Positions 15,353 through 64,000 of a DNA stretch of 64,000 nt are shown piece by piece. Below the pieces are notes generated by a model. The model was given only the letters and a program-made list of their open reading frames with translations. It was not told where the DNA came from and ran no database searches. The translations under genes were made by a program, and so were the position numbers. The stretch comes from Synechococcus sp. LTW-R (GTDB lineage: Bacteria > Cyanobacteriota > Cyanobacteriia > PCC-6307 > Cyanobiaceae), in contig NZ_CP059060.1 of the NCBI RefSeq assembly GCF_014217875.1, positions 1,550,001 to 1,614,000 of the forward strand, written 5' to 3'. Numbering within the stretch: position 1 is the first letter of the stretch; every line of letters starts with the position of its first letter.

Positions 15353-16075
15353 ATGAAACGCTTTCGGGTTGAGCTGATTGCAGCGACCCCCAACCCCCAG
15401 CAGTGCGTCTATGCGGGGATGCACCAGGACTACAGCGAAGGGTTTGTGGCGGCTGACCGGGCGGAGTGGCCGGACGAGACCCGCGCCGGCGAGATCTGTG
15501 TCAAGCGTCTCCTCGCCGGAGAGCGCGGTCACTACGGGCCGCTCGAGCACGCCCAGATCGTGCTCAACGTGGGCTGGTTTCCCCACTCCGTCATGCAACA
15601 GGCCCGCACCCACCGGGTGGGGGTGAGCTTTGACGTCCAATCGATGCGCTACACGGGCGATCGGATCTGCCGTGCGGCCAACGGCGAATTGGAACTGGAA
15701 GAGGTCTTTTACCTGCGCCCTGAAGGCCAGTACAGCGATCGCCAAGGCAAGAAGTACACCTACACGGCGGACGAGCGGCAAAAGGATCTCGCCCTCTGCC
15801 AAGTGGCTGCGGAGCGCTACCGCGACATGCTCGCGGCTGGCTTCGCGGAGGAGCATGCCCGCGGGATCCTGCCCTTCGATTACCGCCAGCACTTCGTCGT
15901 CAGCTTCTCGTTACGGGCCTTCCTGCACTTCATGGACCTGCGGGCCAAGCTCGACGCCCAGGAAGAGATCCGGGTGCTCTGCGATCTGATGTGGCCGCAC
16001 CTCCAGGCCTGGGCACCGGAAATTGCCGCTTGGTACGAGAAGAGCCGGCTGCACAAAGCACGCCTGGCGCCGTAG
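15353..16075 (+). CDS. thyX: FAD-dependent thymidylate synthase
   Basis: Makes dTMP from dUMP with methylenetetrahydrofolate and NADPH using FAD. The ThyX signature region reads ARTHRVGVSFDVQSMRYTGD (about residues 84-103), which is the divergent form I associate with picocyanobacteria rather than the canonical RHRxxSxNExSxRY. At 240 residues it has family length. The nearby dcd gene, which feeds dUTP synthesis, fits a pyrimidine deoxynucleotide locus, although the two are now separated by a decayed insertion. Confidence 0.93.
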   Translation: MKRFRVELIAATPNPQQCVYAGMHQDYSEGFVAADRAEWPDETRAGEICVKRLLAGERGHYGPLEHAQIVLNVGWFPHSVMQQARTHRVGVSFDVQSMRYTGDRICRAANGELELEEVFYLRPEGQYSDRQGKKYTYTADERQKDLALCQVAAERYRDMLAAGFAEEHARGILPFDYRQHFVVSFSLRAFLHFMDLRAKLDAQEEIRVLCDLMWPHLQAWAPEIAAWYEKSRLHKARLAP

Positions 16076-16171
16076 AGCCCTCACCGCCAAAACACCAAGA
16101 ATCACAAATACGGTTCACCCGAGGTTCTCTGAAGCGGGGGTATAAGCCTGAGATCAACGGCAAGACCGTTC

Positions 16172-17754: not shown

Positions 17755-17801
17755 TTAAAAGAAAGCCTCACCAACGGACCAGAGACTCTCAATCGAGAAA
17801 G

Positions 17802-18395
17802 TCAAACGCGCGCCAAGGTGACCCGCTCGGGCTGGTGCTGGTACTTCCCGGCCCGGTCCTTGTAGGTGGTCTCGCAGGGGTCGCCCTCAAAGAAGAGCAA
17901 CTGACAGATGCCCTCGTTGGCGTAGATCCGGCAGTCCGCTCCGGAGGAGTTGCTGAACTCCAGAGTCAAATGGCCCTCCCAGCTGGCCTCGGCCGGGGTC
18001 GTATTGACGATGATCCCAAGACGGGCATAGGTGCTCTTGCCCAGGCAGATCACGGTGATGTTGGGGGGCACCCGCATGTTCTCCAGCGCCACACCCAATC
18101 CATAGGAATGGGCCGGGAGGATGAAGTAGGACCCGTCCTCGTCCTCATGCAGCGGAACCGGCTCGAGGTTCGCCGGATTGAAGCGCTTGGGATTCATGAT
18201 CGTGCCGGGCACATGCCGGAAGATCAGGAACTCCTGGGGCGACAGGCGCAGGTCGTAGCCGTAGGAGGAGCAGCCAAAGCTCAAGACCGGCTTTTGACTG
18301 TTCTCCGGATCGAGATGACGGACTAGCTGCGGCTGAAAGGGCTCGAGCATGCCCTGGGCGGCCTGCTCGTTAATCCAACGGTCGTTCTTGAGCAT
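17802..18395 (-). CDS. dcd: dCTP deaminase
   Basis: Deaminates dCTP to dUTP, supplying dUMP for ThyX. Family motifs VICLGKSTYARLGI (about residues 115-128), ASWEGHLTLEFSN (about 138-150, carrying the catalytic Glu) and GICQLLFFEGDP are clear. At 197 residues it has normal length. Its ATG overlaps the TAA of the upstream CobO-like gene as TAATG, so the two are cotranscribed. Confidence 0.95.
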   Translation of the reverse strand: MLKNDRWINEQAAQGMLEPFQPQLVRHLDPENSQKPVLSFGCSSYGYDLRLSPQEFLIFRHVPGTIMNPKRFNPANLEPVPLHEDEDGSYFILPAHSYGLGVALENMRVPPNITVICLGKSTYARLGIIVNTTPAEASWEGHLTLEFSNSSGADCRIYANEGICQLLFFEGDPCETTYKDRAGKYQHQPERVTLARV

Positions 18396-49897: not shown

Positions 49898-52800
49898 ATG
49901 ACCCTCAGCAGCGCCCCGGTTGCGAACAGCGCCGCACCGCTGCAGCTGAGTGCCGCTGAAGCCTGGCAGCACCTAAAGGAACTGGACCGCCAAATCGATC
50001 AGGTGGTGCTGCAGCGCCAACACCCGATCACCGGCCTACTCCCCGCCAGCACCGCCAACAACGTCCACGGCAACTACGGCGATGCCTGGGTGCGGGACTG
50101 CGTCTATTCGATCCAATGCGTATGGGGTCTCGCCCTGGCCCACCGGCGCCTGAGTGGCGCCACCTCCCGCGTCTATGAGCTGGAGCAACGGGTGCTGCAA
50201 CTGATGCGGGGCCTGCTCAACGCGATGTTGCGCCAAGCCCACAAGGTCGAGCGCTTCAAGCAGACCCTCTCACCGCTCGATTGCCTGCACGCCAAGTACG
50301 ACACCGGCAGCGGCGATCCCGTGGTCCCAGACGACGGTTGGGGCCATCTGCAGCTCGATGCGACGGCCCTCTTTCTGCTGCAGCTCGCCCAGCTGACCCG
50401 CTCGGGACTCGTGGTGGTGCAAACCAGCCATGAGCGGGACTTCCTGCAAAACCTCGTCTATTACGTCGCCCGCGCCTATCGCGTGCGCGACTACGGCATT
50501 TGGGAACGGGGCGACAAGGGCAACCACGGCCTACCGGAGCGCAACGCCAGCTCCATCGGCCTCGTGAAAGCAGCCCTCGAAGCCCTGGTGGGCCTCGATC
50601 TCTATGGCCCCCACGGAAGCGGGCAGTGCCATCTGTACATCCCCCACGACGCCATCGTGCGGCTGCGGCGCGCCTTGAGCGGCCTGCTGCCGCGCGAGTC
50701 GGCCAGTAAAGAAGTGGATGCGGCCTGCCTCTCGGTGATTGGCTACCCGGCCTGGGCCGTGGAAGACCGCGCCCTGGTGGAGCGCACCCGGGACAAAATC
50801 CGCACCGAACTGGGCGGCCCCTACGGCTACAAGCGCTTCCGCCGCGATGGCCACCAAACCGTGGTCGAGGACCACAACCGGCTGCATTACGAACGCGAGG
50901 AACTGGCCCAGTTCGAGCACATCGAATGCGAGTGGCCCTTGTTCTTGGCCTACGAGCTGATCACGGCCTGCTGCGAAGAGCGCTGGAGTGAGGCCTGGAG
51001 CTGGCGGGAGCGCCTGCGCAAGGTGGCCGTGGAGGTGGATGGGGTCGCGCTGCTCCCTGAGGTGTACGTGGTTCCCGAAGAACGGGTTGAGGCGGAGCGC
51101 CAGCAACCGGGCAGCCAGGAGCGGATCGCGAACGACAACGTGCCATTGCTCTGGACGCAGAGCCTGACCTGGCTGGGCGATCTGATGCTGCTGGGCCTAC
51201 TGGAGCCGCAGCAACTCGACCCCAGCGAACGGCGCCGCAGCCGCAGCCTGGGCGCGACGGAGGTGCTGGTCAGTTTTGTTCCCGCACGCGAGAGCATCGC
51301 GGCGGCACTCGAGCAGGCCGGCCTCGCCGTGAGCAGGCCAACCGGTCCCACCAGCATTGCCAGCTCCAAGGAGCTGGGCCGGCGGATGGCGCAGGTGGGA
51401 GCCAATGCCCGTCTGGGCCTGAGCGGCCACCCGCGCTTGCGGATGGAGACCATGGCCACCGCCCGGCTCTACCGCCAAGACGGCCAAACCCTGGCCTTTC
51501 TGCCGGCGGTCCTCGAGGAGAGCACCTTCTACCTCTCCGATGACCCCGAGCAACTCGTCGATGCGGTCGCCAACGAAATCAGCCAGTTGGAGCGCCACTG
51601 GCGCGGCAGCGGTCTACCGCTGTTACTGATCCCCGTCGAAGAAGGTCCCTTCCAGCGCAGCCCCGAGACGTTCCTGCGGCTGGGGGAAACCCTGCGCAGC
51701 GGCGTGCTGGGTGGCACCGCTGTTCAACTGGGCAGCCTGGATGACCTCGCCAGCCAGGCCTGCTGGGCCGACCTGCCCAGCCACCGACCCGAAGCGGCCG
51801 CCAGCGCCCCAGCGGAGCCGACCCAGGGGCTGCAGAGCAGCAACCTCGACAAACCCCTGACCGCAGCAGACGAGCAGGAGCTGGAGGAATCCAGCCTCGA
51901 TGCTCTGCTGGAGCGGCTCTGGCAAAGCGGATCCCTGCAGGAGCAAGCCGAGCTGCTCGAACTGCTGGTGCGCCGGCTGGGGCTCTCCACGGTTCTAACG
52001 GGGCCCAGCGGCAACGCCACGCCGAAGGCCCTGCTAGAGGAGGCCTACCGACGGGGCCTCAAAGAAGGCGACTGGAACGTGGTCCGGCGTTGCGCTGGAG
52101 TCCTCGGCTTGGTGCATCCCCAACTGGAAGATGCCCTGACCGACCTATTGGTGCGCCAGAAGCAAGTCGTGGTGGGGCGCAACTACACCAATGACTCCCT
52201 GATCACCCAACCCCTGAGCAGCAAAGCGATTGCGGCGAGAATCCGCCGCTACAGCGGCGAGGACAGCCGCGAATGGGTGCTGCAACAGGAGCTCCTGCTC
52301 GCCCTCGATGGCCTCGCCCGGCGTGATCCAGCCCTGCTCAGCGGCAGCCTGACCCTGCAGCTCGGCCAGCTGTTGCTGCTGCTCACCAGTGAAGTGGCCG
52401 GGGAGCAGAACCTCTCACCGAGCGACGCCTTCGAGGCCCTCTGCGACACCCCTCCCCACACGATCGGGCGCCGGCTCAAGCAGGTGCTCAGCGATGTGGA
52501 ACACGCCAAAGCTGCCCTCCAACGCAAGGAGCAACTGCACCTCAGCGGCCGGGTGAGCTGGGAAGCACCAGCACCCCTCGAGGAACTCGAAAAAGGCGAG
52601 AACTGGCTCAAACACCGCGAGCGCATGGGGGCGCTGCAAAACGTCCCGCGGGACTTCCACCCGGGGATCTGGAGCCTGCTGCACCACTGCCGCGGCCTGG
52701 TCATCGGCGACAAACTCGAACGCCGCAACCGGCTCGAGAGCGCGCCGCTGCTCAAGGAGAAAACCCCCGGCGAACGCAACTTCGCCGTGCACGTGGAGCA

Positions 52801-53095
52801 CCTGCTCAGCAAGATCGAAGCTCCGGAGTACCGGCGCCTCTGCATCGAGACCCTGGTGACCCTGATTGCCTTTGTCGATGCCAACCCAGAGGTCAGCGTC
52901 GCTGACGACCTGGTGCTGGATGTGGTGATTGGCCACGCCGTTCGGGTTGGCTGGCAACAGCGCCACCCACAGGCTGATCCTGCTGACTACGGGAGCCACA
53001 AAAGCGATGCCTGGGGAGAGTTCTACCGCTCGTCACCGGCCGACTGTCGCCGCTGGCAACTGCGGGCCCTCAAGGAACTCGCCGAGATGGAATGA
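49898..53095 (+). CDS. GH15/phosphorylase-kinase-alpha-like protein
   Basis: A 1065-residue protein. The N-terminal (alpha/alpha)6 toroid (about residues 20-440) resembles GH15 glucoamylase and the phosphorylase-kinase alpha/beta subunits: NVHGNYGDAWVRDCVYSIQC, DDGWGHLQLDATALFL and YGIWERGDKGNHGLPERNAS (candidate general acid Glu 203). The C-terminal 550 residues are helical and match no domain I recognise, though a phosphorylase-kinase-like tail is plausible. There is no signal peptide. Glycogen- or glucan-linked regulation is a guess. It is the last GC-rich gene before the low-GC island; its stop is the left boundary. Confidence 0.82.
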   Translation: MTLSSAPVANSAAPLQLSAAEAWQHLKELDRQIDQVVLQRQHPITGLLPASTANNVHGNYGDAWVRDCVYSIQCVWGLALAHRRLSGATSRVYELEQRVLQLMRGLLNAMLRQAHKVERFKQTLSPLDCLHAKYDTGSGDPVVPDDGWGHLQLDATALFLLQLAQLTRSGLVVVQTSHERDFLQNLVYYVARAYRVRDYGIWERGDKGNHGLPERNASSIGLVKAALEALVGLDLYGPHGSGQCHLYIPHDAIVRLRRALSGLLPRESASKEVDAACLSVIGYPAWAVEDRALVERTRDKIRTELGGPYGYKRFRRDGHQTVVEDHNRLHYEREELAQFEHIECEWPLFLAYELITACCEERWSEAWSWRERLRKVAVEVDGVALLPEVYVVPEERVEAERQQPGSQERIANDNVPLLWTQSLTWLGDLMLLGLLEPQQLDPSERRRSRSLGATEVLVSFVPARESIAAALEQAGLAVSRPTGPTSIASSKELGRRMAQVGANARLGLSGHPRLRMETMATARLYRQDGQTLAFLPAVLEESTFYLSDDPEQLVDAVANEISQLERHWRGSGLPLLLIPVEEGPFQRSPETFLRLGETLRSGVLGGTAVQLGSLDDLASQACWADLPSHRPEAAASAPAEPTQGLQSSNLDKPLTAADEQELEESSLDALLERLWQSGSLQEQAELLELLVRRLGLSTVLTGPSGNATPKALLEEAYRRGLKEGDWNVVRRCAGVLGLVHPQLEDALTDLLVRQKQVVVGRNYTNDSLITQPLSSKAIAARIRRYSGEDSREWVLQQELLLALDGLARRDPALLSGSLTLQLGQLLLLLTSEVAGEQNLSPSDAFEALCDTPPHTIGRRLKQVLSDVEHAKAALQRKEQLHLSGRVSWEAPAPLEELEKGENWLKHRERMGALQNVPRDFHPGIWSLLHHCRGLVIGDKLERRNRLESAPLLKEKTPGERNFAVHVEHLLSKIEAPEYRRLCIETLVTLIAFVDANPEVSVADDLVLDVVIGHAVRVGWQQRHPQADPADYGSHKSDAWGEFYRSSPADCRRWQLRALKELAEME

Positions 53096-53163
53096 GGATG
53101 AAAGTTAAGTATATTGCTGAAGAACAAGATCACACAACCAAAGAAGAAAGACTTCCAATTGTC

Positions 53164-54111
53164 ATGAGATCGATGAAAGAAAAGCTTGTCACTGTGGTAA
53201 TTCCGACATTCCGCTCAAACGGAAGAGTCATTGAAACTGCAGATGACGTCAGGAAGCGCCTAAGAGAATTGGACATCCAAAACGAAGTTATAGTTGTCGA
53301 GGACTGCGGAAGGGACAACACATGGGATGCACTGGTGAACTATGCGGAAAACGAGAGAGGTTTCAAGGCAATTCAACTTAGACGAAACTATGGCCAACAC
53401 AATGCAATCCTGTGCGGGATAGTCAATGCCAAAGGTGATCTCATCATCACAATGGACGATGACGGCCAGCATGACCCAGAAGAGATAGAGAAACTAATTG
53501 TCAAACTCGATGAGGGGTGGGACGTTGTTTATGGAACGCCACTAAGAGAAGCACATAGCCGGAGAAGAACGCTAGCCTCAAGATTAACAAAGATGGCCCT
53601 CCAGCTGTCAGCAAACGGGAGCAAGACAGTGAACATATCGGCGTTCAGGGCCATAAGAGCCGAAATATGCGAGCCTTTCAAGAATTACCAAAGCAGATCC
53701 GTCAACCTTGACGCTTTGCTGCACTGGCAAACAGACAGAATAAGCGCTATTAAGGTAAACCACCGAGGGAGACTGCACGGCGATAGCACTTATTCGCTCA
53801 GAAAGCTTGTGAAGCACACTACAAATATGGTCATAGGATTTTCATCGCTCCCACTACGCGCCGCAAGCTATACGGGCATAGCAATAGCCGCAGGTGGCAT
53901 CTGTGCACTTTTGTTTGTATTGTCAGGATGGATAGCAAACGGAAGCGTAGTGCCTGGATTTGCATTTTTGGCTTGCCTGATGTGCATATTTGCTGGCACA
54001 CAGTTAGTAGCACTCGGCCTAATCGGTGAGTACATATCACGAATATACGGAAGGTCACTTAATCAGCCCGTATTTACGGTGGCCAAGGTGGTGGAAGGCC
54101 GAAATGATTGA
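53164..54111 (+). CDS. GT2 polyprenyl-phosphate glycosyltransferase (ArnC/GtrB-like)
   Basis: A DPM1-like GT2 enzyme with a cytoplasmic GT-A domain (VTVVIPTFRSNGRVIETADD, the metal site in LIITMDDDGQHDPEEIEKL) and two C-terminal membrane helices (about residues 233-257 and 271-294 from this start). Enzymes of this shape load a sugar onto undecaprenyl phosphate. The frame is open from ATG 53092, which overlaps the previous stop. I prefer ATG 53164 (MRSMKEKLVTVVIP) because the family homology begins with KLVTVVIP. Base composition is A-rich. It overlaps the GNAT gene start by eight bases. Confidence 0.88.
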   Translation: MRSMKEKLVTVVIPTFRSNGRVIETADDVRKRLRELDIQNEVIVVEDCGRDNTWDALVNYAENERGFKAIQLRRNYGQHNAILCGIVNAKGDLIITMDDDGQHDPEEIEKLIVKLDEGWDVVYGTPLREAHSRRRTLASRLTKMALQLSANGSKTVNISAFRAIRAEICEPFKNYQSRSVNLDALLHWQTDRISAIKVNHRGRLHGDSTYSLRKLVKHTTNMVIGFSSLPLRAASYTGIAIAAGGICALLFVLSGWIANGSVVPGFAFLACLMCIFAGTQLVALGLIGEYISRIYGRSLNQPVFTVAKVVEGRND

Positions 54112-54892
54112 CTCAGACCTGAACTACTACGAATGGAGCGACTCCGGAGTCAGCGTTGTTGGACACCTGTGCGAGCATGACTCACTAGCACTGGGAGAAA
54201 AGATTTTTCAAATCGATGAGATCGGCATGCCGGACTACACCTGCAGCCCAAAGTCAGCAGAAAGCTTCAGAAGGTTTCTGCTGAATGAAGGCTTCACAGG
54301 CGCAACGGCTAGGGTGAAGATAGGAAGCCAAGAGGCGATCACCTTTCTGCAATCCTGCGAGTTTATTTTTATTGAAACAATAATCGAACCCTTTGTACAA
54401 ACAAAGACATTTGACGGAGAATACGACTGGAGCACAAGAATTAGACCTGCCGAAATAGAGGACATTCAGCATTTAAAGGAGATGGCTTTTGAGGCATTTT
54501 CACTAGAAAGATATCATTCAGACAATAGGTATGACAGCAGACTTGCCAGCAAGAGATACTCAGACTGGATAGAAAAGGCAGTCCTAGAAAGAGGAGAACA
54601 AGTTGTCGACGTCGTTATCCAAGAAGGACTGCAGGTTGGCTTCTTTATAAGTAAATTTAACGAGAATGGGGAAGAATGCATGTGGCTTCTGAATTGCATT
54701 GCCCCAAGCCATCAAGGGAAGGGAATTGGGAAGCGCGCTTGGACTGCAATGATTTATAAACTAAAGCAAGAAGGAGTCAAGACAATTAAAACATCAGTGA
54801 CTGCAACCAATACAAGGGTTCTTGGTCTTTATAGCACCTTGCAATTTAGATATCTAGCCCCTCTGGCAACTTTTCACTGGAAAGAAGTCTAA
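54104..54892 (+). CDS. GNAT N-acetyltransferase, WecD-like
   Basis: A 262-residue protein with a divergent N-terminal half and a GNAT domain at the C-terminus (about residues 110-255). The acetyl-CoA loop is SHQGKGIGKRAWTAM, and the ending TNTRVLGLYSTLQFRYLAPL is typical of sugar N-acetyltransferases in O-antigen clusters. RffA in the same operon makes dTDP-4-amino-4,6-dideoxygalactose, so acetylation of that amino group to dTDP-Fuc4NAc is the best guess (as with E. coli WecD). The start ATG 54104 lies in the GT2 stop region. Confidence 0.8.
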   Translation: MIDSDLNYYEWSDSGVSVVGHLCEHDSLALGEKIFQIDEIGMPDYTCSPKSAESFRRFLLNEGFTGATARVKIGSQEAITFLQSCEFIFIETIIEPFVQTKTFDGEYDWSTRIRPAEIEDIQHLKEMAFEAFSLERYHSDNRYDSRLASKRYSDWIEKAVLERGEQVVDVVIQEGLQVGFFISKFNENGEECMWLLNCIAPSHQGKGIGKRAWTAMIYKLKQEGVKTIKTSVTATNTRVLGLYSTLQFRYLAPLATFHWKEV

Positions 54893-54940
54893 TAAGACAC
54901 CTAATAAACAGGAATAGCTGGAGAATAGGTGAGGCCTTCA

Positions 54941-55354
54941 ATGGCTGGCAATGGTGTTAAAGTTGCTCTATCAGATGGAATGACGATGAGGGAGCTCTTG
55001 CTAGCCGCGCCATCAATTATTCTGATCGGAAGCGCGAATGCAGTGATGAAGTGGAGATTGACAAGCACAAATAACGAAAGCGTCGCTGGAGATTTGGCAC
55101 AAAAGATAATCCGACTAGTTTCAGATCCATTTTTGTTTGCAGCGGTCATTGGAACGATCGCTTCTATCCTATGGTGGCTATACATCATATCCAGGGTTCG
55201 AGTTTCTGTAGTCTACCCAATGATTCAAGCTGGAGCCATTGTATTCACTTCGGCTCTGGCAGCGGTATTTCTCCAAGAAAAGATCAATGGTGAACAGCTG
55301 ACGGGGATGCTTCTCGTAATATCAGGTATATTTTTCCTAGCTGCGAGTCGCTAA
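54941..55354 (+). CDS. Four-helix EamA/SMR-like membrane protein
   Basis: A 137-residue protein with four hydrophobic helices (about residues 18-33, 60-83, 88-110 and 113-133). Features such as SIILIGSANAVMKWRL and SVVYPMIQAGAIVFTSALAAV followed by FLQEKING fit the SMR/EamA half-transporter fold, like ArnE/ArnF, which flip undecaprenyl-phosphate-aminoarabinose. ATG 54941 has a GTGAGG ribosome-binding site six bases upstream. Its position after a GT2 enzyme supports a lipid-linked-sugar flippase role, which is inferred. Confidence 0.8.
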   Translation: MAGNGVKVALSDGMTMRELLLAAPSIILIGSANAVMKWRLTSTNNESVAGDLAQKIIRLVSDPFLFAAVIGTIASILWWLYIISRVRVSVVYPMIQAGAIVFTSALAAVFLQEKINGEQLTGMLLVISGIFFLAASR

Positions 55355-55357
55355 ATA

Positions 55358-55837
55358 GTGCCTAAGAACCCTAGGGACGGGATCTTCTTGGTCAAAGCGG
55401 CCGCAAGAAGATACCTACAGCTTGTATTGATGAATACCCTACCATTCTCGACTTGGAGAGTATTTGTACTCCGTCTGTGTGGAGTGCACATTGGCAAAGA
55501 CTGTTACGTCGGATTTGGCGTTATGGTTGATACAAATTATCCAGAGCTAATTACTATTGGCAACTCTGTAACCATATCCCACTCATGCTATATATTTACT
55601 CATACTCAGACACCGGCGCTATCAAGACTTGGGAAAACTTTTGATTCTGTAAAGGGTGTGAAGCTTTTTAGCGGTGCCTGGATAGGAGCTTCATCCTTGA
55701 TTTTACCAGGAGCGGTAGTAGAGGAAGACTGTATGGTGGGGGCTGGCTCTACGGTACGAGGAACATTGAGAAAGGGTTGCCTTTACATGGGTAATCCTGC
55801 GAAGCTGGTGAGAGAGATTTTTAGAGACTCGTACTAA
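55358..55837 (+). CDS. Left-handed beta-helix acyltransferase (hexapeptide family)
   Basis: A 159-residue protein starting at GTG 55358, three bases after the previous stop. The hexapeptide region reads GVHIGKDCYVGFGVMVDTNY, then ITIGNSVTISHSCYIFTHT, and ends with GAWIGASSLILPGAVVEEDC, VGAGSTVRG and MGNPAKLVREI. This is the WcaF/maltose-acetyltransferase type. The His in SCYIFTHTQTP is the likely catalytic base. It should O-acetylate (or otherwise acylate) a sugar. Composition shifts here from A-rich to T-rich. Confidence 0.85.
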   Translation: MPKNPRDGIFLVKAAARRYLQLVLMNTLPFSTWRVFVLRLCGVHIGKDCYVGFGVMVDTNYPELITIGNSVTISHSCYIFTHTQTPALSRLGKTFDSVKGVKLFSGAWIGASSLILPGAVVEEDCMVGAGSTVRGTLRKGCLYMGNPAKLVREIFRDSY

Positions 55838-55838
55838 G

Positions 55839-57284
55839 GTGAAAATTCTTGTTGTCGGTACTGGGTTGGCAGCATATGGTTGTTGCAAGGCTCTTATAGA
55901 GAATATGGTTGATAACATACATGTATATGATATTGGCCTAACTCACAGGGGTGAGTTCTGTGTTGCCAAGGAAGTACTGAATGCATCGAGTGGTGACGGG
56001 TCATTCTTTGAATACGGTATAAATGATTTGAACCTAAGACCTCGTCTTAAGTCAAAGCGCTTATGCTCAAGCCACGCAGCCGGTGGATTCTCTAGAGTAT
56101 ATAGTGGGTCAATATTGAGACCTCAAAATGAGGATCTCATTGACTGGCCTGAAGATTCGATTCCTGAAGATAACGACTTTAAAGCGATTATTTCTTCGTT
56201 AGATATTTGCCAGTTTAAAGATGACTTGGCTACTCTTGCTCCACTAGATGGTACTTCACCACGAATCTCTCCCGAGCTCAGCTGTTATTTAGGCAGGTCT
56301 CGAATAGCACTAAGCCAAGACAAAGAGATTGACGGATGTGTTAACTCGTCAAAAAGTACATTCTGCAGCAGTGCAGCTTTTGATGCTTGGTCTAGTCTTG
56401 GGGTAATAAGATATTTTTCAGGTGTTTACGTGGAGTCAGTTAAGCAAGGCAGAAACAAAGTAGATGTTTACTGCAGACGTGGCAGTAAATCGTTTATAGA
56501 AGCGTTCGACAAGATTTATCTTGCAGCGGGATGTGTTAACACAACGAGCATTATCGGCCACAGCATGGGAGAGAGCAAGGAGCTATATATCAAGTCTGCA
56601 CCGATACACCTCGGTGCTTACATTAGGTGGAAGTTTCGCAGAGACAAGAGCGAAGCGAGATGTAATTCTATCGTGGAAGGCACCATTCCCGATAGATGCC
56701 AATACTTCCATGAGTTCAAGTCAGCGAATACTGGATATCGTTGGTCACATACACAGCTAGGTCCAATGAATACAGATGTGCGAGAGAAGGTGTCAGGATT
56801 AGTACCTCTCTGTCTTACAAGGTATATGAATATGTTATTGAAGAATGTCTGGTTTTCGATTAGCACACTTAACTCTACGACAGGGGAAGATATACCCATT
56901 GTAGTTGATTCAGTTGGACCTACTATTATGGATAGATTAACTAAGATTAACGAAAGACCTCTCAGGAGAAGGTTGCGATACAGCCTAGAGTTAAAACTGA
57001 GAATCCTTAGCAAGTTCAAGACTCTGAAACTGTTGCCTATCCCTTTTGGATCGATTATTGGGGATGTATTAAGAAAAAACCGACTTGGGGGGTGGCACAT
57101 CGGTGGATCACTACCAATGAGTGCTCGGTCGGAATCCCCATACACCTGTAAGCCGACTGGAGAACTTAGAGGAATCAAAGGCGTTTATGTGGTTGACTCA
57201 GCGGGTTTTCCATCCGTACCGGGAAGTTCAATAGCATTGCTAAGCATGGCTAACGCTTATCATATAGCTAGGAATTCACTTTAA
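55839..57284 (+). CDS. GMC-type FAD-dependent oxidoreductase
   Basis: A 481-residue flavoprotein. The N-terminal dinucleotide loop is MKILVVGTGLAAYGCC (Gly 7, Gly 9). The C-terminus has the GMC-type active site GGWHIGGSLPMSA (His 420), then LRGIKGVYVVDSAGFPSVPG and SSIALLSMANAYHIAR, which closes over FAD. Family members oxidise sugar or alcohol hydroxyls. No signal peptide is present, so a nucleotide-sugar or free cyclitol is a likely substrate. It starts with GTG one base after the previous stop and precedes an aminotransferase, suggesting oxidation followed by amination. Confidence 0.83.
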   Translation: MKILVVGTGLAAYGCCKALIENMVDNIHVYDIGLTHRGEFCVAKEVLNASSGDGSFFEYGINDLNLRPRLKSKRLCSSHAAGGFSRVYSGSILRPQNEDLIDWPEDSIPEDNDFKAIISSLDICQFKDDLATLAPLDGTSPRISPELSCYLGRSRIALSQDKEIDGCVNSSKSTFCSSAAFDAWSSLGVIRYFSGVYVESVKQGRNKVDVYCRRGSKSFIEAFDKIYLAAGCVNTTSIIGHSMGESKELYIKSAPIHLGAYIRWKFRRDKSEARCNSIVEGTIPDRCQYFHEFKSANTGYRWSHTQLGPMNTDVREKVSGLVPLCLTRYMNMLLKNVWFSISTLNSTTGEDIPIVVDSVGPTIMDRLTKINERPLRRRLRYSLELKLRILSKFKTLKLLPIPFGSIIGDVLRKNRLGGWHIGGSLPMSARSESPYTCKPTGELRGIKGVYVVDSAGFPSVPGSSIALLSMANAYHIARNSL

Positions 57285-57290
57285 TAGCCG

Positions 57291-58538
57291 ATGCGAATCT
57301 CTAGGGGCAGCATTCATCACGAGATTCACGAAGACATCTTAAGTCTCATTCACTCATGCGTAGATCCTGGATTGTCTAAAGCTGCGAGCGCAAAGCAGAA
57401 GACAGAGGTTGAAGACGCTATAACACTCTACTTTAGAACTAAGGATTCGAAGCTTTATACGCTCGCAAGGACAGCTTTGCTTGAGATCTTGCTATCACTT
57501 GACCTCGAGAAAGGATCTAAAGTCTTAATGACGCCGATCAATATATATCCCATGAAAGAAGTTATTGAGCACGTTGGATGTACGCCTATATTTGTGGATA
57601 TTGATCCAGGGCATGCTTTCCTCCCTAGCCTCGATGATTTAGAAAAGCAGTTAAGGATGAAGCCTGCATGCTTTTTGATAACACACCTATTTGGGATGGC
57701 TGGAAATATAGAAGAGATCGCAGAGCTTTGCCGAAGATATGATGTTATCCTGATCGAGGATATATCACAATCGATTGGAGCAAGATACAACGGTAAGCAT
57801 TTAGGGACTTTTGGTGATTTCGCTATCTGTAGCTGCTCGATTACAAAGTATCTAGATGCTTACGGCGGCGGTTTTGCGTTGATAAATGACAATCATTCGA
57901 ACTTCGCAAGTTCTAGCCTTAATGCCTTAGAGATGAGGCCACCATCAAGACGTAGATTGACTTCAAGTATTTTTACAACCTTAGCGTGGAATATTGCGTT
58001 AAGTTTGTCTTTTTTCTCGGTTTTTACTTATCCGGTTCTTAGAATAGTCTTGCGCCTAGATAAGAAGCTATATGGCAGACTCTTAGGGGCCAAGATCAAA
58101 GAGATGGGCTCAGATACGCTGCCTAGTTTTTACACAGAAGACATTAGTGTATTGCAGGCGAGGATGATTGCGAGGGGACTTGAGCGCCTAGACTATATTA
58201 TTAGACAGAGGCGAGAATGTTTTGATAAGTTTTCGGAGGCTTATGAAGCCGTACATGGATGTCGATATATAATTGGGACAGATATTGAATTAGAGGATAT
58301 TAGTTCCTATCATGTTTATTGGCAGGTTCTCTTGCCAGTCGGTAAGCAAGACAATGCGCGTTATCAGCTGCTAAAACTCGGGATCGAAACGGGTGGTACA
58401 AATCTACCCGTCCTTGGCTCTGAATCTGTATCTGAAAGTTGGAGGATCAAGAACAATATGCTGTTTGTTCCTCTTCACAAAGGGCTAGGTGTCAATGACT
58501 ATGCTTCAATAATCAGTGCTTACAAACTTCTCGGTTAA
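57291..58538 (+). CDS. DegT/DnrJ/EryC1/StrS-family aminotransferase, divergent
   Basis: A 415-residue PLP enzyme of the sugar-aminotransferase family. The PLP-ring aspartate is in DVILIEDISQSIGARYNG (Asp 157, Gln 160), and the catalytic Lys 186 is in CSCSITKYLDAYGGGFALI, so it should be active. The N-terminal 55 residues and the region 220-270 (hydrophobic, SIFTTLAWNIALSLSFFSVF) are unlike RffA and give it an unusual internal hydrophobic segment. It lies between the GMC oxidoreductase and RffA, and its stop overlaps the RffA start (TAATG). Confidence 0.82.
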   Translation: MRISRGSIHHEIHEDILSLIHSCVDPGLSKAASAKQKTEVEDAITLYFRTKDSKLYTLARTALLEILLSLDLEKGSKVLMTPINIYPMKEVIEHVGCTPIFVDIDPGHAFLPSLDDLEKQLRMKPACFLITHLFGMAGNIEEIAELCRRYDVILIEDISQSIGARYNGKHLGTFGDFAICSCSITKYLDAYGGGFALINDNHSNFASSSLNALEMRPPSRRRLTSSIFTTLAWNIALSLSFFSVFTYPVLRIVLRLDKKLYGRLLGAKIKEMGSDTLPSFYTEDISVLQARMIARGLERLDYIIRQRRECFDKFSEAYEAVHGCRYIIGTDIELEDISSYHVYWQVLLPVGKQDNARYQLLKLGIETGGTNLPVLGSESVSESWRIKNNMLFVPLHKGLGVNDYASIISAYKLLG

Positions 58539-59674
58539 TGTCAGCCAAAGAAGTCCCATTCAATAAGCCGTACCTAACTGGTGATGAGATTCGGTTTATT
58601 CAAGATGCTCATCATAGGGGGCAGCTGTCTGGAGATGGTTACTATACTGGTCTATGTAGTCAATGGATAAAAAATAATCTAAACTGTGGAAAAGTCTTGT
58701 TGACTCATTCGTGCACGGCTGCACTAGAGATGTCTGCGCTCTTAGGGAATCTCAGCGAAGGCGACGAGGTCATAATGCCTTCATACACATTTGTATCAAC
58801 TGCCAATGCATTTGTACTTAGGGGTATCAGACCTATATTTGTAGATATTCGACCGGACACTCTCAATATAGATGAAACAAAGATTGAAGCAGCTATCACT
58901 AGCAAAACAAAAGCTATAGTCGTAGTTCATTATGCTGGCGTTGCCTGTGAATTAGACGCAATCATCGCTATTGCCCAAAGGCATGAACTACTTCTAGTAG
59001 AAGATGCTGCACAGGCATTTCTTTCAAAGTATAAAGACGAATACCTCGGAACGTTTGGCAATCTTGCAACTTTTTCTTTCCATGAAACAAAGAATATAAT
59101 TTCAGGAGAGGGTGGAGCGCTAATCATTAATGAAAAAGAACTCTTTGTAAGATCAGAGATTATTAGAGAGAAAGGTACAAACCGTAGTCAGTTTTTCAGG
59201 GGAGAGATTGACAAGTACAACTGGGTAGACCTCGGTTCATCCTTCTTGCCAGGCGAAATAGTGTCTGCTTTCTTATGGGGACAATTGAAGTCTGCATTTA
59301 AGATAACATCAACACGTATAGAGTACTGGAACGAGTATCACTTAGCGTTTTCGAGTTATGAGGCTAAAGGGATTCTTACTAGACCTTGGGTTCCCAGTCA
59401 CTGCACCCACAATGCTCACATGTACTATTTGATTTTCGAGAAGCCAGATGTTAGGAGTTTTTTTATTAAAGAAATGAAGGATCGGGGTATTCATTGTGTC
59501 TTTCACTATGTCCCGCTTCATAACTCCCCGTTCGTGAAGGGGAAGTTCCCCGAAGTGCAATCCTTACCAGTGACTGAGAGGGTTAGCGATTGCTTAGTAC
59601 GTTTGCCCATGTGGATCGGAATGGATCAGAGCCTTATCCTCAAACACGCGAAAGAAGTATTAAATTGCATTTAG
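58538..59674 (+). CDS. rffA: dTDP-4-amino-4,6-dideoxygalactose transaminase
   Basis: A 378-residue protein closely resembling E. coli WecE/RffA throughout: VPFNKPYLTGDE, KVLLTHSCTAALEMSALL, GDEVIMPSYTFVSTANAFVL followed by RG, IFVDIRPDTLNIDETKIEAA and VHYAGVACELD. PLP Lys 185 is in FSFHETKNIISGEGG. It aminates dTDP-4-keto-6-deoxyglucose to dTDP-Fuc4N. The rmlA and rmlB genes that make the precursor are not in the window. Its end overlaps the stop of the convergent membrane protein by four bases. Confidence 0.92.
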   Translation: MSAKEVPFNKPYLTGDEIRFIQDAHHRGQLSGDGYYTGLCSQWIKNNLNCGKVLLTHSCTAALEMSALLGNLSEGDEVIMPSYTFVSTANAFVLRGIRPIFVDIRPDTLNIDETKIEAAITSKTKAIVVVHYAGVACELDAIIAIAQRHELLLVEDAAQAFLSKYKDEYLGTFGNLATFSFHETKNIISGEGGALIINEKELFVRSEIIREKGTNRSQFFRGEIDKYNWVDLGSSFLPGEIVSAFLWGQLKSAFKITSTRIEYWNEYHLAFSSYEAKGILTRPWVPSHCTHNAHMYYLIFEKPDVRSFFIKEMKDRGIHCVFHYVPLHNSPFVKGKFPEVQSLPVTERVSDCLVRLPMWIGMDQSLILKHAKEVLNCI

Positions 59675-60972
59675 GGATCAGCTAAATAGTCCGAGGGACT
59701 ATTATCTCCAATAATTGCTTGAGCTGATGCAGCTAAATATGCAATAGCGCAACCTACCGAAAATGGCATGGAGATATAGTCGCAATAATCAACTGCGAGG
59801 AATTGCAGCTCAGGGAAGTAGGGGCGGTAATTATAGAATAGAATGTACAAGCTCGAGGCTCCAAAAGTTAATATGGATAGCATATTACTCTTTGTATATC
59901 TTATATTTTGAGTCTCGCTTCGCGCACTCATTAATCCTGCTAGTGAAAGGAAGAGTAGTCCCAGAGATACAAGTTTATAGTTTGCTGAGCTTGTAAAGAA
60001 ATACATTATAATAAACGAAGAGGCCCCCAATGCGGCTGTCATAATTGGGGTAAGAGAATCGCCCTTATAGTGACGTATAGCTTGCTTTAGAATTTTGTTA
60101 GCTACGCTTGCAAATGTGAGAAATCCAATAGTTGCGATTACAATCTTGAGATAATTTAATAAGTTCAAGCTGTTGTGTGCATTCGGTACTTGAAATCCAA
60201 AAACAATTCCTGGGTCAACATGTAGATTACTTGCGAATGAACCAGGCGCTGTACCTGAGATTGTGAGAAGCAATAACGAAATTGGAATTAACGCATAAAG
60301 AAACACCTTTAGGTATCGATTAGAAACTAGAATAGAGTTTACGAGCACTGAATAGATGAAGAGATACGGAAGAGTGAATCCCTTAATCAATACACTAAGA
60401 AAAATAAGTAGGCCTGCAGACAATATATTTTTGTTAGATCTTCTCTGATATGTCTTTGACAGGAAGAGTGGAAAAGCCAGTAAGGCAAGAATCCAGGCAA
60501 TCTGATCGAGCTGGCCCCTCTCGATCACATAACGAAATGGGAAAGAATATATGAGTAGTGAATATGCAATGAGACAGCAGAGATTGGAAATGCGTAAATT
60601 CTTCTCAATTTTTGTTGCGGTCACAAGGCATGACATCAAAAAGAATGTCCCCAGAAGAAAGCCGCTTAGATTTGGATGCTTAACTAACCAGCCAGGAATG
60701 AGATTATATATATAGAAGGCCGCAGTTGGATAGTCGAATTCCCCTCGTATAACTCCATAAAAGCTATCGCTGCAAGAACCAAGTATTTTAAACTGATGAA
60801 TTGGTATGTGACATTGATAGTTAAGTATCAGAATATATAAGTCTCTGAATTGGGGTGTAGCCTTAGGGACTCCGTTAAACAGAGACTTGCCGAGGCCGAA
60901 AATATCCAGATCTGATGAATAAAGAAATAGTTCAACTACAAGAGGTACGGAAACAAAGAAATACTTAAACAT
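59671..60972 (-). CDS. Polytopic membrane protein, GT-C-like
   Basis: A 433-residue protein with about ten to twelve membrane helices spread over the whole length. An N-terminal loop (about residues 40-95, with FRDLYILILNYQCHIPIHQ and FDYPTAAFYIYNLIPGW) and VIERGQLDQIAWILALLAF near residue 150 resemble the extracytoplasmic loops of GT-C glycosyltransferases. No established family is recognised. It could be the final transferase for a lipid-linked sugar made by the opposite-strand operon. GC is about 40%. It overlaps the small upstream gene by eight bases. Confidence 0.78.
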   Translation of the reverse strand: MFKYFFVSVPLVVELFLYSSDLDIFGLGKSLFNGVPKATPQFRDLYILILNYQCHIPIHQFKILGSCSDSFYGVIRGEFDYPTAAFYIYNLIPGWLVKHPNLSGFLLGTFFLMSCLVTATKIEKNLRISNLCCLIAYSLLIYSFPFRYVIERGQLDQIAWILALLAFPLFLSKTYQRRSNKNILSAGLLIFLSVLIKGFTLPYLFIYSVLVNSILVSNRYLKVFLYALIPISLLLLTISGTAPGSFASNLHVDPGIVFGFQVPNAHNSLNLLNYLKIVIATIGFLTFASVANKILKQAIRHYKGDSLTPIMTAALGASSFIIMYFFTSSANYKLVSLGLLFLSLAGLMSARSETQNIRYTKSNMLSILTFGASSLYILFYNYRPYFPELQFLAVDYCDYISMPFSVGCAIAYLAASAQAIIGDNSPSDYLADP

Positions 60973-61234
60973 TAATTAGAGAGCGGACAATATAAGAAGA
61001 CATTATAAGCAGAATAGAGGTAAATATATAGCTATTGGCAAATAGACCTATGCTAGAGACAAAGCTTGAACTTCTACTTGCGAAGGCGACTCCAACGACG
61101 GCTTGGATCATGGTGGTGACGACGACCGTCAATTTCAAGTCAATTGAGAACACGGCCGTTATTGAGCGGGCAGGAGAAATTAGTAGCTGCAGAAGCTGGC
61201 TATCAATGATAGAGGATACGGTCACAAGAGTCAT
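60965..61234 (-). CDS. Small hydrophobic protein of unknown function
   Basis: An 89-residue open frame with ATG 61234, containing two or three hydrophobic stretches (about residues 12-28, 34-52 and 58-84). The eight-base overlap with the following membrane-protein gene suggests translational coupling. There is no recognisable family; GtrA was considered but its motifs are absent. It may be a real small membrane partner or a remnant of a larger gene. Confidence 0.5.
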   Translation of the reverse strand: MTLVTVSSIIDSQLLQLLISPARSITAVFSIDLKLTVVVTTMIQAVVGVAFASRSSSFVSSIGLFANSYIFTSILLIMSSYIVRSLINV

Positions 61235-61276
61235 TCTTTAAGATCAAGCCAAGACAGTGTGATGCATAGACTATGA

Positions 61277-62269
61277 TCATATGGGGCTTGGCAAGCTTAT
61301 GCATATATTAGAGTTGTCGACTGACTGTTCAATTAGATCGGCAAGTAGCAAAGCGCGCGATGCCTGTGGGCCGTCTACAGCAGGCTTTTCTTGTCCGCGA
61401 ACGCACTGCAAGAAATGCTCTAATTCGGCCACTAGCGGATCTACCGGAGATGTGCTTACTTCTTCGATAAAACCATCGTTCCGATAAAGCAACTCACCAT
61501 GGTCGGCACTGAAGGACTGATGGGTACGCCGATGGATCTGCAAGCTGCGATTGAGAAAATCTGTTTCCACAAGAGCACCACGGCAGTGGGCCGAAAGACT
61601 CCGGATCTTGCGATGGGCCATCTTGCTAGAGGTCAGACTAGCTACGATGCCGTTAGAAAATCCTAAGGTGGCATTGACGTAATCAATCGGGCCATCGGCG
61701 CTGCGGCCGCCTGCGGCGGCGAGACGCACAACCGGCGCCTGGGCCAGCTCGAGCACCAAATCGATGTCGTGAATCATCAGATCCAGGACCACTGATACAT
61801 CGTTGGCGCGATCGGGATTGGGGCTATGTCGACGCGCCTCCAGCACCACAACCTCTTCTCCAGCCACCACCTTGATCAGCTCACGGAAGGCTGGATTGAA
61901 GCGCTCGATGTGACCGACCTGCAGCAATCGACCGGCTGCCTTGGCGGCTCGAATCAGATCGGAGGCCTCGTCTTGGGTTGCCGCGATCGGCTTCTCGATC
62001 AGGACGTGGACCCCGGCGTCAAAGCAGGCCATACCGACCCTGTGATGCAGCAGCGTCGGCACCGCGATGCACACGGCTTCGACCTCTTTGAGGAGATCGG
62101 CGTAGTCAGCGAACCAGCGGCAACTGAACTGCTCCACCGCCAGCTGGCCGCGATCGGGGTCCGGGTCAGCGACACCAACGAGCTCGGCATCCTTGAGCAA
62201 GCTGAGCACCCGGGCGTGGTGCCAGCCCATATTTCCAATTCCGATCACTCCAACGCGGACTGGCTTCAT
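61277..62269 (-). CDS. Gfo/Idh/MocA-family NAD(P)-dependent sugar dehydrogenase
   Basis: A 330-residue oxidoreductase. The Rossmann start is VRVGVIGIGNMGWHHARVL, the catalytic-domain motif is HVLIEKPIAATQDEA (EKP at about residues 93-95), then QVGHIERFNPAF and DLMIHDIDLVLEL. Such enzymes commonly oxidise UDP-HexNAc at C-3 before transamination. It is transcribed out of the backbone toward the island; its last 100 or so bases are AT-richer than the rest, marking the right edge of the island. Confidence 0.88.
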   Translation of the reverse strand: MKPVRVGVIGIGNMGWHHARVLSLLKDAELVGVADPDPDRGQLAVEQFSCRWFADYADLLKEVEAVCIAVPTLLHHRVGMACFDAGVHVLIEKPIAATQDEASDLIRAAKAAGRLLQVGHIERFNPAFRELIKVVAGEEVVVLEARRHSPNPDRANDVSVVLDLMIHDIDLVLELAQAPVVRLAAAGGRSADGPIDYVNATLGFSNGIVASLTSSKMAHRKIRSLSAHCRGALVETDFLNRSLQIHRRTHQSFSADHGELLYRNDGFIEEVSTSPVDPLVAELEHFLQCVRGQEKPAVDGPQASRALLLADLIEQSVDNSNICISLPSPI

Positions 62270-62303
62270 GGCGTTGGAGTTCCGGCCCAGCCATTATCAG
62301 GGA

Positions 62304-63593
62304 TCAGAGGTCGTGTTCGCTGCTGGATTCAGCCAAACGGCGACTGATCTCTACACGTTCAATCCGAGGGCCATCCATCGCCAGGACCTCGAACTGATGC
62401 CCCTTCCAAAACACACTTTCCCCCGGTGAGGGGATGTGCTGAAGGCGCTCCAGAAGAAAACCGGCCAAGGTGTGGTGCTCATCGGATTCCGGCAGTTGGA
62501 GGTTGAGCTCCCGGTTGAGCTCATAAATCTCGAGATCGCCGGCCACCAGCCAGCTGTGGTCCTGTAGCTGCTGCAGATCCTCCTCAGGGTTTTCGGGATC
62601 CTCTTCCTCGCCGACGATCTCGCTGGTGAAGTCAGAAATGGTGACCAAACCCTCCGTACCGCCGTGCTCGTCCACCACCAACAGCAGCGGCTGACCACTG
62701 CGAATTAAGGGCAGCAAATCCGCCACCGGGGTGGTTTCTTGCACCTTGGTCACCGGGGTGACGTAGGGAGCCAGAGGCGTATCGCGCTGCAGCAGGCCCT
62801 TGGCAATCGGCTCAGCCAGACGGCGCAGGTCCAGCACCCCACGCACGTCATCAAGGGAACTGCCAAGGACGGGGAAACGGGCGTGATGGGTCGTGTGGAC
62901 CGCTTCCATCAATTCGCCAAACCGCACCTCAAGCGGCAGGGTGACCATTCCGGAACGGGGCACCATCACCTCCCTGACCTGGGTGTCGCGCAGGGAGAAG
63001 AGCCCTTCCAACATGTCCCGTTCATCAGGCATCAAGCCGGTGACGCTGTCGGACTCAATCAGCGTTTCCAGCTCACCGGCGGAGAGGGCAGGCACCAACT
63101 GGTCCCAGTTGCGGGGCAAACCCAGCAGACGCAACACTCCATCGCCGAGGCGCTCCACTACGGCCAAAAATGGAGCCAGGGTTCGAATCAAGTTCTCCAG
63201 AACCGGAGCCAGGCGCAGGGCGGTGGCCTCCGGCCTGTGCAGAACCCAAGCTTTCGGCACCAACCCACCCACCAGGGTGGCCAGCAGCACCAACACGGCA
63301 AACACGCCAAAGTCCCACCAGACCTGCTGGCTGGAAGCGGTCGAGAGGCGCTCCGCCAGTGCACGGCCGCTCCAGCCCAGAGCCAACAGCGCCATGGCCA
63401 TACCGAGCTGGGTCGCCACTAAGGCCCGGCGCAAACGACGCTGCAGGCGGGCAACGGCGGAGGCTCCAGCGTGACCGTCCTCCTGCAGCAACTGAACCCG
63501 GGTCGGGCGCAGGCGGATCAGCGCAAACTCGGACGCCGCGAAGAAGGCCAGCAGGATCAGCAGGGCCGCCGGAGCCAGGAATCGCATCGCCAA
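62304..63593 (-). CDS. CNNM/CorC (HlyC)-family membrane protein with CBS pair
   Basis: A 429-residue protein. The N-terminal CNNM domain with three to four helices (about residues 5-175) starts AALLILLAFFAASEFALIRL. Then come a CBS pair (about 200-325, with RDTQVREVMVPRSGMVTLPL and LVVDEHGGTEGLVTISDF) and a C-terminal CorC_HlyC domain (about 340-420). Relatives are implicated in magnesium or cobalt efflux and tolerance; the historic hemolysin label is unreliable. ATG 63587 (MRFLAPAAL) is an alternative start. The CAU-tRNA gene lies 4 bases upstream. Confidence 0.9.
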   Translation of the reverse strand: MAMRFLAPAALLILLAFFAASEFALIRLRPTRVQLLQEDGHAGASAVARLQRRLRRALVATQLGMAMALLALGWSGRALAERLSTASSQQVWWDFGVFAVLVLLATLVGGLVPKAWVLHRPEATALRLAPVLENLIRTLAPFLAVVERLGDGVLRLLGLPRNWDQLVPALSAGELETLIESDSVTGLMPDERDMLEGLFSLRDTQVREVMVPRSGMVTLPLEVRFGELMEAVHTTHHARFPVLGSSLDDVRGVLDLRRLAEPIAKGLLQRDTPLAPYVTPVTKVQETTPVADLLPLIRSGQPLLLVVDEHGGTEGLVTISDFTSEIVGEEEDPENPEEDLQQLQDHSWLVAGDLEIYELNRELNLQLPESDEHHTLAGFLLERLQHIPSPGESVFWKGHQFEVLAMDGPRIERVEISRRLAESSSEHDL

Positions 63594-63597
63594 AGAG

Positions 63598-63670
63598 TGG
63601 GGGTCGCGAGGATCGAACTCGCCTAAGGCGGATTATGAGTCCGCTGCATTCACCAGATTGCTAGACCCCC
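63598..63670 (-). tRNA. tRNA with CAU anticodon (Met elongator or Ile2)
   Basis: A 73-nt cloverleaf on the minus strand. The perfect acceptor arm GGGGGTC/GACCCCC has discriminator A. The anticodon stem GCGGA/TCCGC holds the loop CTCATAA, giving CAT. The T-arm is GCGAG-TTCGATC-CTCGC. Anticodon CAU fits elongator Met, initiator Met, or Ile2 with lysidine. The paired first acceptor base excludes the initiator; Met and Ile2 cannot be separated with confidence by eye, and Met is the default. Confidence 0.9.
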
Positions 63671-64000
63671 AGCGGGTGTGATCTACCACAGGCCACGCAA
63701 GGGGGGGTTCTGAAGGAGCAATCGGCGTGCTGGAGAGGCTGCAGCCACCCTGGGCCAACCCTTGGCAGAAGCCATTGGACAGATCGGCGGTCCGCCATGG
63801 CAGGGGAGTGCTCTGGTGATCGAGCAACACTTGATAGGTGTTCTCGACGGCCGAACCGTCCCAAACAATCGTCTGATCGGGGAAGCCAAGGCCCATCACC
63901 CGGTTGCCCTCGCGGCCGCCCATGGCAATACCCAGGACATCGGTGATCTGATTCACCACGCTCACCCCGCGGGCGTAGGGGGCGGTGTAACTGAAGAAGC
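63633..64000 (-). CDS. Unrecognised protein, C-terminal part (5' end outside window)
   Basis: The visible 122 residues begin in the middle of a protein, with FFSYTAPYARGVSVVNQITD and later VMGLGFPDQTIVWDGSAVEN. The frame is open and codon use is backbone-like. I do not recognise a family. Two Cys residues (about 25 and 32 residues before WPVVDHTRW) could form a disulfide in an exported protein. Its stop (TAA) lies inside the tRNA gene immediately downstream on the same strand, a 38-base overlap. An earlier stop caused by a frame error is not excluded. Confidence 0.6.
   Translation of the reverse strand, partial: FFSYTAPYARGVSVVNQITDVLGIAMGGREGNRVMGLGFPDQTIVWDGSAVENTYQVLLDHQSTPLPWRTADLSNGFCQGLAQGGCSLSSTPIAPSEPPLAWPVVDHTRWGSSNLVNAADS

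Follow-up and report, generated by a model that had tools for sequence, protein, structure and literature searches.

We examined a window of 64,000 nucleotides (nt) from Synechococcus sp. LTW-R (contig NZ_CP059060.1, positions 1,550,001 to 1,614,000 of the forward strand; assembly GCF_014217875.1), whose genome is a single contig of 2.416 Mb, and show that an island occupies window positions 53096-61276 with the genes on either side of it intact, and that none of the relatives examined has it at this site. The left flank is a glycoside hydrolase-type gene (GH15) on the + strand and the right flank a Gfo/Idh/MocA oxidoreductase gene (gfo) on the - strand. Here, 8.2 kb have been placed between convergent genes that lie one base apart in the nearest relatives, and neither gene was broken. 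Horizontal acquisition is strongly supported, and we consider it probable that what was acquired is a cassette for surface-glycan decoration, which went in where the GH15 and gfo stops converge. The cassette is real and ordinary in kind; what is unusual is the exactness of its site and the presence of a gene pair encoding a GMC-type oxidoreductase and a divergent DegT-family aminotransferase (DegT1).

The island is absent from the same site in relatives

The base composition of the island is unlike that of its host, as expected of acquired DNA. Its G+C (GC) content is 42.8%, against 64.5% for the remaining window (1-53095 and 61670-64000), and 8-kb windows upstream of it have a mean GC of 64.5% (standard deviation 1.5, minimum 61.2). 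The initial annotation of this DNA had located the drop in GC at the GH15 stop codon, and this was borne out: GH15 itself has a GC of 66.4%, the gene after it one of 46.6%, and native identity reaches the stop. It had also described both edges as sharp, which holds for the left one; the right compositional edge lies about 400-500 bp inside gfo and not at the gfo stop.

We then compared the site among relatives. GH15 was found in 40 of the 60 genomes searched (own included), and its protein is up to 96% identical to those of relatives over the full length. The stretch downstream of GH15 was fetched for 20 relatives. Two belong to other genera and 18 to the host genus, of which 24 members besides the own genome had been searched. 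All 20 have GH15, gfo and a CorC-like gene in this order with no cargo between GH15 and gfo, the stop-to-stop distance of these two genes ranging from -4 to 33 bp. The stops are 1 bp apart in the three nearest relatives (G023, G020 and G018) and in G029, and overlap by 4 bp (-4 bp) in 10 of the 20. GH15 and gfo also adjoin, as judged by coordinates, in five further relatives (G009, G017, G019, G021 and G026); G002 and G010 were not included in the empty-site counts. A search with the island DNA (197 genomes, own included) gave matches in 10 other genomes, none of them of the host genus, and these are confined to the gene for a WecE-type aminotransferase, at 63-68% identity.

The horizontal origin proposed by the initial annotation is thereby upheld, since the same flanks occur without cargo in 20 of 20 relatives and no other genus member is among the 10 genomes matching island DNA. 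It had suggested aligning the GH15-gfo interval across relatives, with different or no cargo between identical flanks as the supporting outcome and the same gene set in all close relatives as the refuting one; this alignment, once run, gave the former, in the form of no cargo, and not the latter. Because the site is empty in every relative examined, we conclude that the island is a single, precise presence/absence insertion among these relatives and not a hotspot with varied cargo. No alternative cargo, as a replacement island would have, occupies the site in any of the 20 fetched relatives. The view of this locus as a variable region therefore stands in so far as the island is present here and absent elsewhere, and falls in so far as it implied differing cargo.

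The two borders compared with relatives

The GH15 gene (49898-53095, +; Pfam Glyco_hydro_15 and KPBB_C, the latter a phosphorylase-kinase C-terminal domain) is the native left flank and its stop codon is the left junction. Its 3' end, taken in 60-bp bins up to the stop, is 82-100% identical to the three nearest relatives. On the right side, gfo (61277-62269, -; GFO_IDH_MocA) has an intact frame of 330 residues and a counterpart in all 20 fetched relatives. Compared with the nearest relative, G018, its first 600 nt are about 90% identical and the remainder about 75%. Most of this divergence is silent: between the 5' and the 3' part, identity drops from 78% to 45% at third positions and from 98% to 93% at positions 1 and 2. 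GC at third positions is 50% in the last 393 nt (61277-61669, -) and 73% in the first 600 nt, against 79-83% in the 3' part of four near relatives. A change point was placed at nt 522 of gfo in the comparison with G018 (0 of 300 permutations), at nt 770 with G023 (0/300), at nt 914 with G020 (0/300) and at nt 875 with G012 (1/300). The log-likelihood gains were 7.7-21.7 for the window and 2.3-4.9 in three comparisons between relatives, the permutations covering the window comparisons. The peak of synonymous substitutions is seen at the gfo border and not at the GH15 border.

Borders with mostly synonymous substitutions are described at exchanged surface-polysaccharide islands of aquatic prokaryotes (PMC4033161). 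The silent divergence of the gfo 3' part, the change point and borders of this type together favour entry by homologous recombination in gfo. We propose that the gfo 3' end (61277-61669) is a homologous-recombination tract that probably arrived with the island from a donor not yet sequenced. On the right, the island would have entered by recombination through gfo homology, bringing the incoming gfo 3' end with it; on the left, it would have been joined at the GH15 stop without detected homology.

Two observations weigh against this proposal. The position of the change point varies among comparisons, which leaves the gfo breakpoint loosely located. In the protein tree, the gfo 3' part falls with the host genus (SH-like approximate likelihood ratio test, SH-aLRT, 99), on a long branch, and has N321, I322 and P327 in common with the five nearest species. 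Yet the genus members looked at are GC-rich, so that an unsequenced AT-rich donor must be postulated. Topology tests on the gfo 3' protein, addressing whether it lies inside or beside the genus, used 51 of 53 rows, as two partial ones were dropped. They did not reject a clade of all genus members except the window sequence (approximately unbiased P value, p-AU, 0.077), nor one of the window sequence with the five nearest species (0.34), nor one of these five alone (0.30), so that both positions are compatible with the data. Among 400 genomes of the family, a search with gfo 3' DNA matched 287, counting the own one; apart from that one, the best match is 78% identical and comes from the host genus, so no donor was found. 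The grouping by protein and the common residues would suit another explanation, namely a native gfo 3' part that turned AT-rich where it stands, through a local rise in AT-biased substitution beside the island; the island itself would then have come in precisely between the two stops, by illegitimate recombination alone. We give this a low chance. The disparity between third positions and positions 1 and 2 would need long evolution under selection, and no such rise is present in the neighbouring 5' part of gfo or at the GH15 3' end.

The locus resembles replacement flexible genomic islands in its surface-glycan genes and in a border with raised, mostly synonymous substitutions; it differs from them in that the site of relatives is empty and the footprint is found at one border only (PMC4033161). 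Such a one-sided recombination footprint would make this a clean natural case of a surface-glycan cassette entering a picocyanobacterial genome without an integrase.

A predicted sugar-decoration pathway

Seven island genes form a run on the + strand with intergenic spacings of -8, 48, 3, 1, 6 and -1 bp, in agreement with the tight packing first reported. They are followed, on the - strand, by a convergent membrane-protein gene and by an open reading frame (ORF) of 89 codons (60965-61234), which is doubtful: its product has two transmembrane (TM)-like segments and no Pfam match up to E=5. It is the ninth of the interior genes first counted. The beginning of the run coincides with, or closely follows, the GH15 stop, and a promoter scan, which returned 13 sites against 16.8 expected by chance, found none on the + strand before 54489; hence, the run is probably co-transcribed with GH15. 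The last gene of the run and the membrane-protein gene have convergent ends with a 4-bp stop overlap (59671-59674), a geometry like that of GH15 and gfo in 10 relatives.

The last gene of the run (DegT2, 58538-59674, +) encodes a WecE-type dTDP (deoxythymidine diphosphate)-4-amino-4,6-dideoxygalactose transaminase that scores over the cut-offs of two curated models (551 bits against an equivalog cut-off of 375, and 532.6 against 434.85) and matches solved WecE-like structures (4piw, E=2.4e-122). RmlB scores over its cut-off in the host genome, so that the substrate of the WecE-type enzyme should exist. Nine of the 13 RmlB-model matches cluster at about 1.663-1.792 Mb of contig 1 of the own genome, some 50-180 kb beyond the island, which suggests that the main sugar-nucleotide region lies there. 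The first gene of the run (53098-54111, +; start codon uncertain, 53092-53173) encodes a GT2 glycosyltransferase (Glycos_transf_2) with two C-terminal TM-like segments. Its nearest solved structures are ArnC (9hwj, E=1.6e-40) and cyanobacterial sll0501 (5ekp, E=3e-33), which we take to be a GtrB; by these matches, it is a predicted polyprenyl-phosphate sugar synthase of the GtrB/ArnC type. Next come a GNAT acetyltransferase resembling WecD (54104-54892, +; Acetyltransf_1 over cut-off), a small ArnE/ArnF-like (SMR/EamA) membrane protein and putative flippase (54941-55354, +; EamA 29.9 bits against a cut-off of 28.2) and a WcaF/WbbJ-like hexapeptide-repeat acetyltransferase (55358-55837, +; Hexapep over cut-off, WcaF-family model at E=4.6e-19, below cut-off). 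The convergent gene (59671-60972, -) encodes a polytopic membrane protein with six TM-like segments by a simple hydropathy count, possibly a GT-C glycosyltransferase of the GT87-like kind; no Pfam match reached the cut-off. It has F-x-D-L and ERG stretches in common with its aligned homologues, presumably typical of such GT-C enzymes.

Taken together, the island genes suggest decoration with a 4-amino-4,6-dideoxy sugar by a pathway of the Arn/Gtr type. In this scheme, the WecE-type enzyme would add an amino group to host dTDP-4-keto-6-deoxyglucose, the RmlB product, and the GNAT protein an acyl group, which gives a dTDP-4-(acyl)amino-4,6-dideoxyhexose. The ArnC/GtrB-like GT2 would load this or a related sugar on undecaprenyl phosphate, the ArnE/F-like protein would flip the lipid-linked sugar and the membrane protein, possibly of the GT-C type, would add the sugar to a surface glycan. 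A role of the decorated glycan in phage or grazer recognition is plausible.

Against the scheme stand several matches below cut-off. The GNAT protein reaches 49.3 bits with the WecD model (E=5e-13) against a cut-off of 219 and is WecD-like only; the GT2 matches the ArnC model at E=1.6e-49, and the small SMR protein matches ArnF at E=7.7e-8 and ArnE likewise, all below NCBIfam cut-offs. For the membrane protein, the GT-C evidence consists of the motifs and of one of four aligned homologues matching GT87 weakly (E=9e-4); it has no PDB match and its structure model is unusable (mean predicted local distance difference test score, pLDDT, 38). Family matches in Pfam and NCBIfam and the solved relatives support the glycan decoration that the initial annotation had read from this DNA. 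Its wording, in which every recognisable product acts on sugars that are activated or lipid-linked, was too strong, since no substrate can be assigned to three of them (the GMC oxidoreductase, the hexapeptide acetyltransferase and the membrane protein). No defence genes were detected by PADLOC among the six proteins given to it.

The likeness to known systems is partial. The Arn pathway includes ArnB, ArnC, ArnE/F and ArnT. The island GT2 is nearest to solved ArnC, its flippase-like protein is nearest to ArnF/ArnE and a 4-amino sugar is the likely cargo; unlike in the Arn pathway, the aminotransferase is of the WecE type and not ArnB, the last enzyme is not ArnT-like by Pfam and no ArnA or ArnD is among the families listed for the island (one list giving the best 25 of 30). 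WecE and WecD synthesize dTDP-Fuc4NAc, and the run on the + strand likewise includes a WecE-type enzyme, which passes its cut-offs, together with a WecD-like GNAT; this GNAT is, however, far below cut-off, and no Wzx/Wzy-type gene was recognized in the island. Three-component extracytoplasmic glycan decoration comprises GtrB, GtrA and a GT-C enzyme (PMC11127046). The island has a predicted polyprenyl-phosphate sugar synthase, a small flippase-like protein and a polytopic membrane protein as possible counterparts; it differs in that it carries its own donor-sugar genes (WecE-type and GNAT) and the GMC-DegT pair, and in that its presumed GT-C protein is not recognizable by Pfam.

A rare GMC-DegT pair

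The remaining two genes of the run encode a GMC-type FAD oxidoreductase of a rare picocyanobacterial subfamily (55839-57284, +) and DegT1, a divergent DegT/DnrJ/EryC1/StrS aminotransferase (57291-58538, +; Pfam DegT_DnrJ_EryC1). The former matches the C-terminal domain model GMC_oxred_C at 33.2 bits against a cut-off of 24.6, the N-terminal GMC domain not being matched, and its structure model is too poor to use (mean pLDDT 47). In the alignment of four DegT1 sequences, K186 and the EDISQ stretch are invariant. These are presumably the residues with roles in a pyridoxal phosphate (PLP) enzyme and, as they are kept, DegT1 is probably an active one.

Of 300 genomes of the family, four have the GMC gene, the own one among them, and the same four, which represent four genera, have a member of the DegT1 subfamily (E below 1e-45); from the equal tallies, both samples are taken as the same 300 genomes. 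With the query genome set aside, the chance that three out of three coincide among 299 is about 2e-7 for independent genomes, which these are not fully. The DegT1 profile was built from the same four loci and favours them, although an equally close lone homologue should also pass. Within the three other genera, the GMC gene occurs in one of 14, one of four and one of three genomes, one of the carriers corresponding to Prochlorococcus sp. AG-436-M02. At these three loci, the GMC and DegT1 genes adjoin or are one small gene apart, and their products are 35-40% identical to those of the island. An ArnC/PgfS-like GT2 gene adjoins the pair or lies one gene away, and a small GtrA-like protein is encoded beside it, over the Pfam GtrA cut-off in two of the three loci and without Pfam match in the third; in one locus, a WecE-type gene, over one of two cut-offs, also stands beside the pair. 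In a scan of 386 genomes of the phylum for the GMC protein, 15, counting the own one, matched at E<=0.001, most of them weakly and in the C-terminal part. GMC relatives at E of about 1e-33 to 1e-38 occur in three genomes of another family (f50), and no DegT1 match was found in the stretches fetched from f50 genomes carrying them. In Prochlorococcus sp. AG-686-M10 (L063:10001-10198), a decayed GMC relic lies between a WecE-type gene, 52% identical to that of the island, and an ArnC/PgfS-like GT2 gene; an ArnE/F-like gene, at 40% identity, follows some 6 kb later.

By sequence comparison, what is new here is this rare co-occurrence of a GMC oxidoreductase with a divergent DegT aminotransferase. 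Literature searches joining GMC oxidoreductases with DegT and Prochlorococcus, or with aminotransferases, lipopolysaccharide, glycosyltransferases and cyanobacteria, found no paper, in a collection without most subscription journals. Before the flip, the GMC oxidoreductase and then DegT1, probably in sequence, would convert a sugar hydroxyl to a carbonyl and aminate it, and the hexapeptide enzyme may acylate the product. We suggest, very tentatively, that the two form a new enzyme pair acting on a sugar linked to undecaprenyl phosphate (or to a nucleotide), one of whose hydroxyls it oxidizes and then aminates before flipping, giving an undescribed picocyanobacterial surface amino sugar, and that the pair moves as one from island to island, with changing flippase and GT-C partners. 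Both the order of the two enzymes and their substrate are guesses, which counts against the proposed pathway. The pair would offer a small hypothesis for a new sugar modification common to the GC-rich host and to AT-rich genomes that we infer to be of the Prochlorococcus type.

Oxidation by GenQ followed by transamination by GenB1 is known from gentamicin synthesis (PMC4039129). The island pair likewise combines a flavin dehydrogenase with a PLP aminotransferase acting, putatively, on a sugar hydroxyl, whereas GenB1 is a class III transaminase (PMC4039129) and DegT1 belongs to the DegT family, in a context of glycan genes. This chemistry, and the name of the best solved relative of DegT1 (7b0d, glutamine--scyllo-inositol transaminase), would accord with the island genes acting, in the GenQ-GenB1 manner, on a secreted or intracellular small amino-sugar metabolite and not on a surface glycan. 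We regard this as unlikely, as polyprenyl-phosphate GT2, flippase-like and membrane genes accompany the pair both here and in the three other loci.

Mobile elements and other features of the window

Tycheposons and other integrase-borne islands carry a recombinase gene and insert at tRNA genes. No recombinase family, integrases included, was recognized among the island products and no tRNA lies at either junction, so a mobile-element origin was rejected. The idea that the cassette is a degraded or self-moving, tycheposon-like integrative element instead of a passively recombined block is highly improbable: a tRNA-Met (63597-63670) about 1.3 kb beyond gfo, an AT-rich block with transposase-like ORFs at another place in G011 and a 30-nt inverted pair spanning the island speak for it, against the lack of recombinase and junction tRNA, spanning repeat pairs that are short, imperfect and inside coding sequence, and the absence of matches to island DNA or the GMC protein in phage and plasmid records. 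A phage or plasmid source was likewise rejected, as the GMC protein has no match in phages, plasmids or two viral-contig scans and the island DNA none in phage or plasmid records. The WecE-type protein matches 37 phage-collection records (10 of the 37 listed), all under 60% identity, which we read as ordinary relatives.

The tRNA-Met is found in seven of nine relative loci scanned, L048 and L039 being the two others. In G011 (L048:2829-9752), the AT-rich block of 6-7 kb lies beyond the CorC-like gene and contains transposase-like, GH13-like and PP2C-like ORFs, as read from the sequences. The repeat search covered the best 20 of 21 direct families and 12 inverted pairs, without a shuffle control. 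The arms of the inverted pair (52666-52695 and 61578-61607) are 73% complementary and lie in coding sequence; we did not use them as support. A direct repeat (53085-53101 and 54973-54989, 16 of 17 identical) has one copy at the GH15 stop, touching the left junction, and the other around the start of the ArnE/F-like gene. It is possibly due to chance, since by a rough estimate it is not far from chance in 9.8 kb, or possibly a trace of the joining event, and was not used either. Elsewhere in the window, a second dip in GC (54%) at 16001-18000, around an ORF for a hydrophobic protein (16438-17190), possibly marks another small acquired gene.

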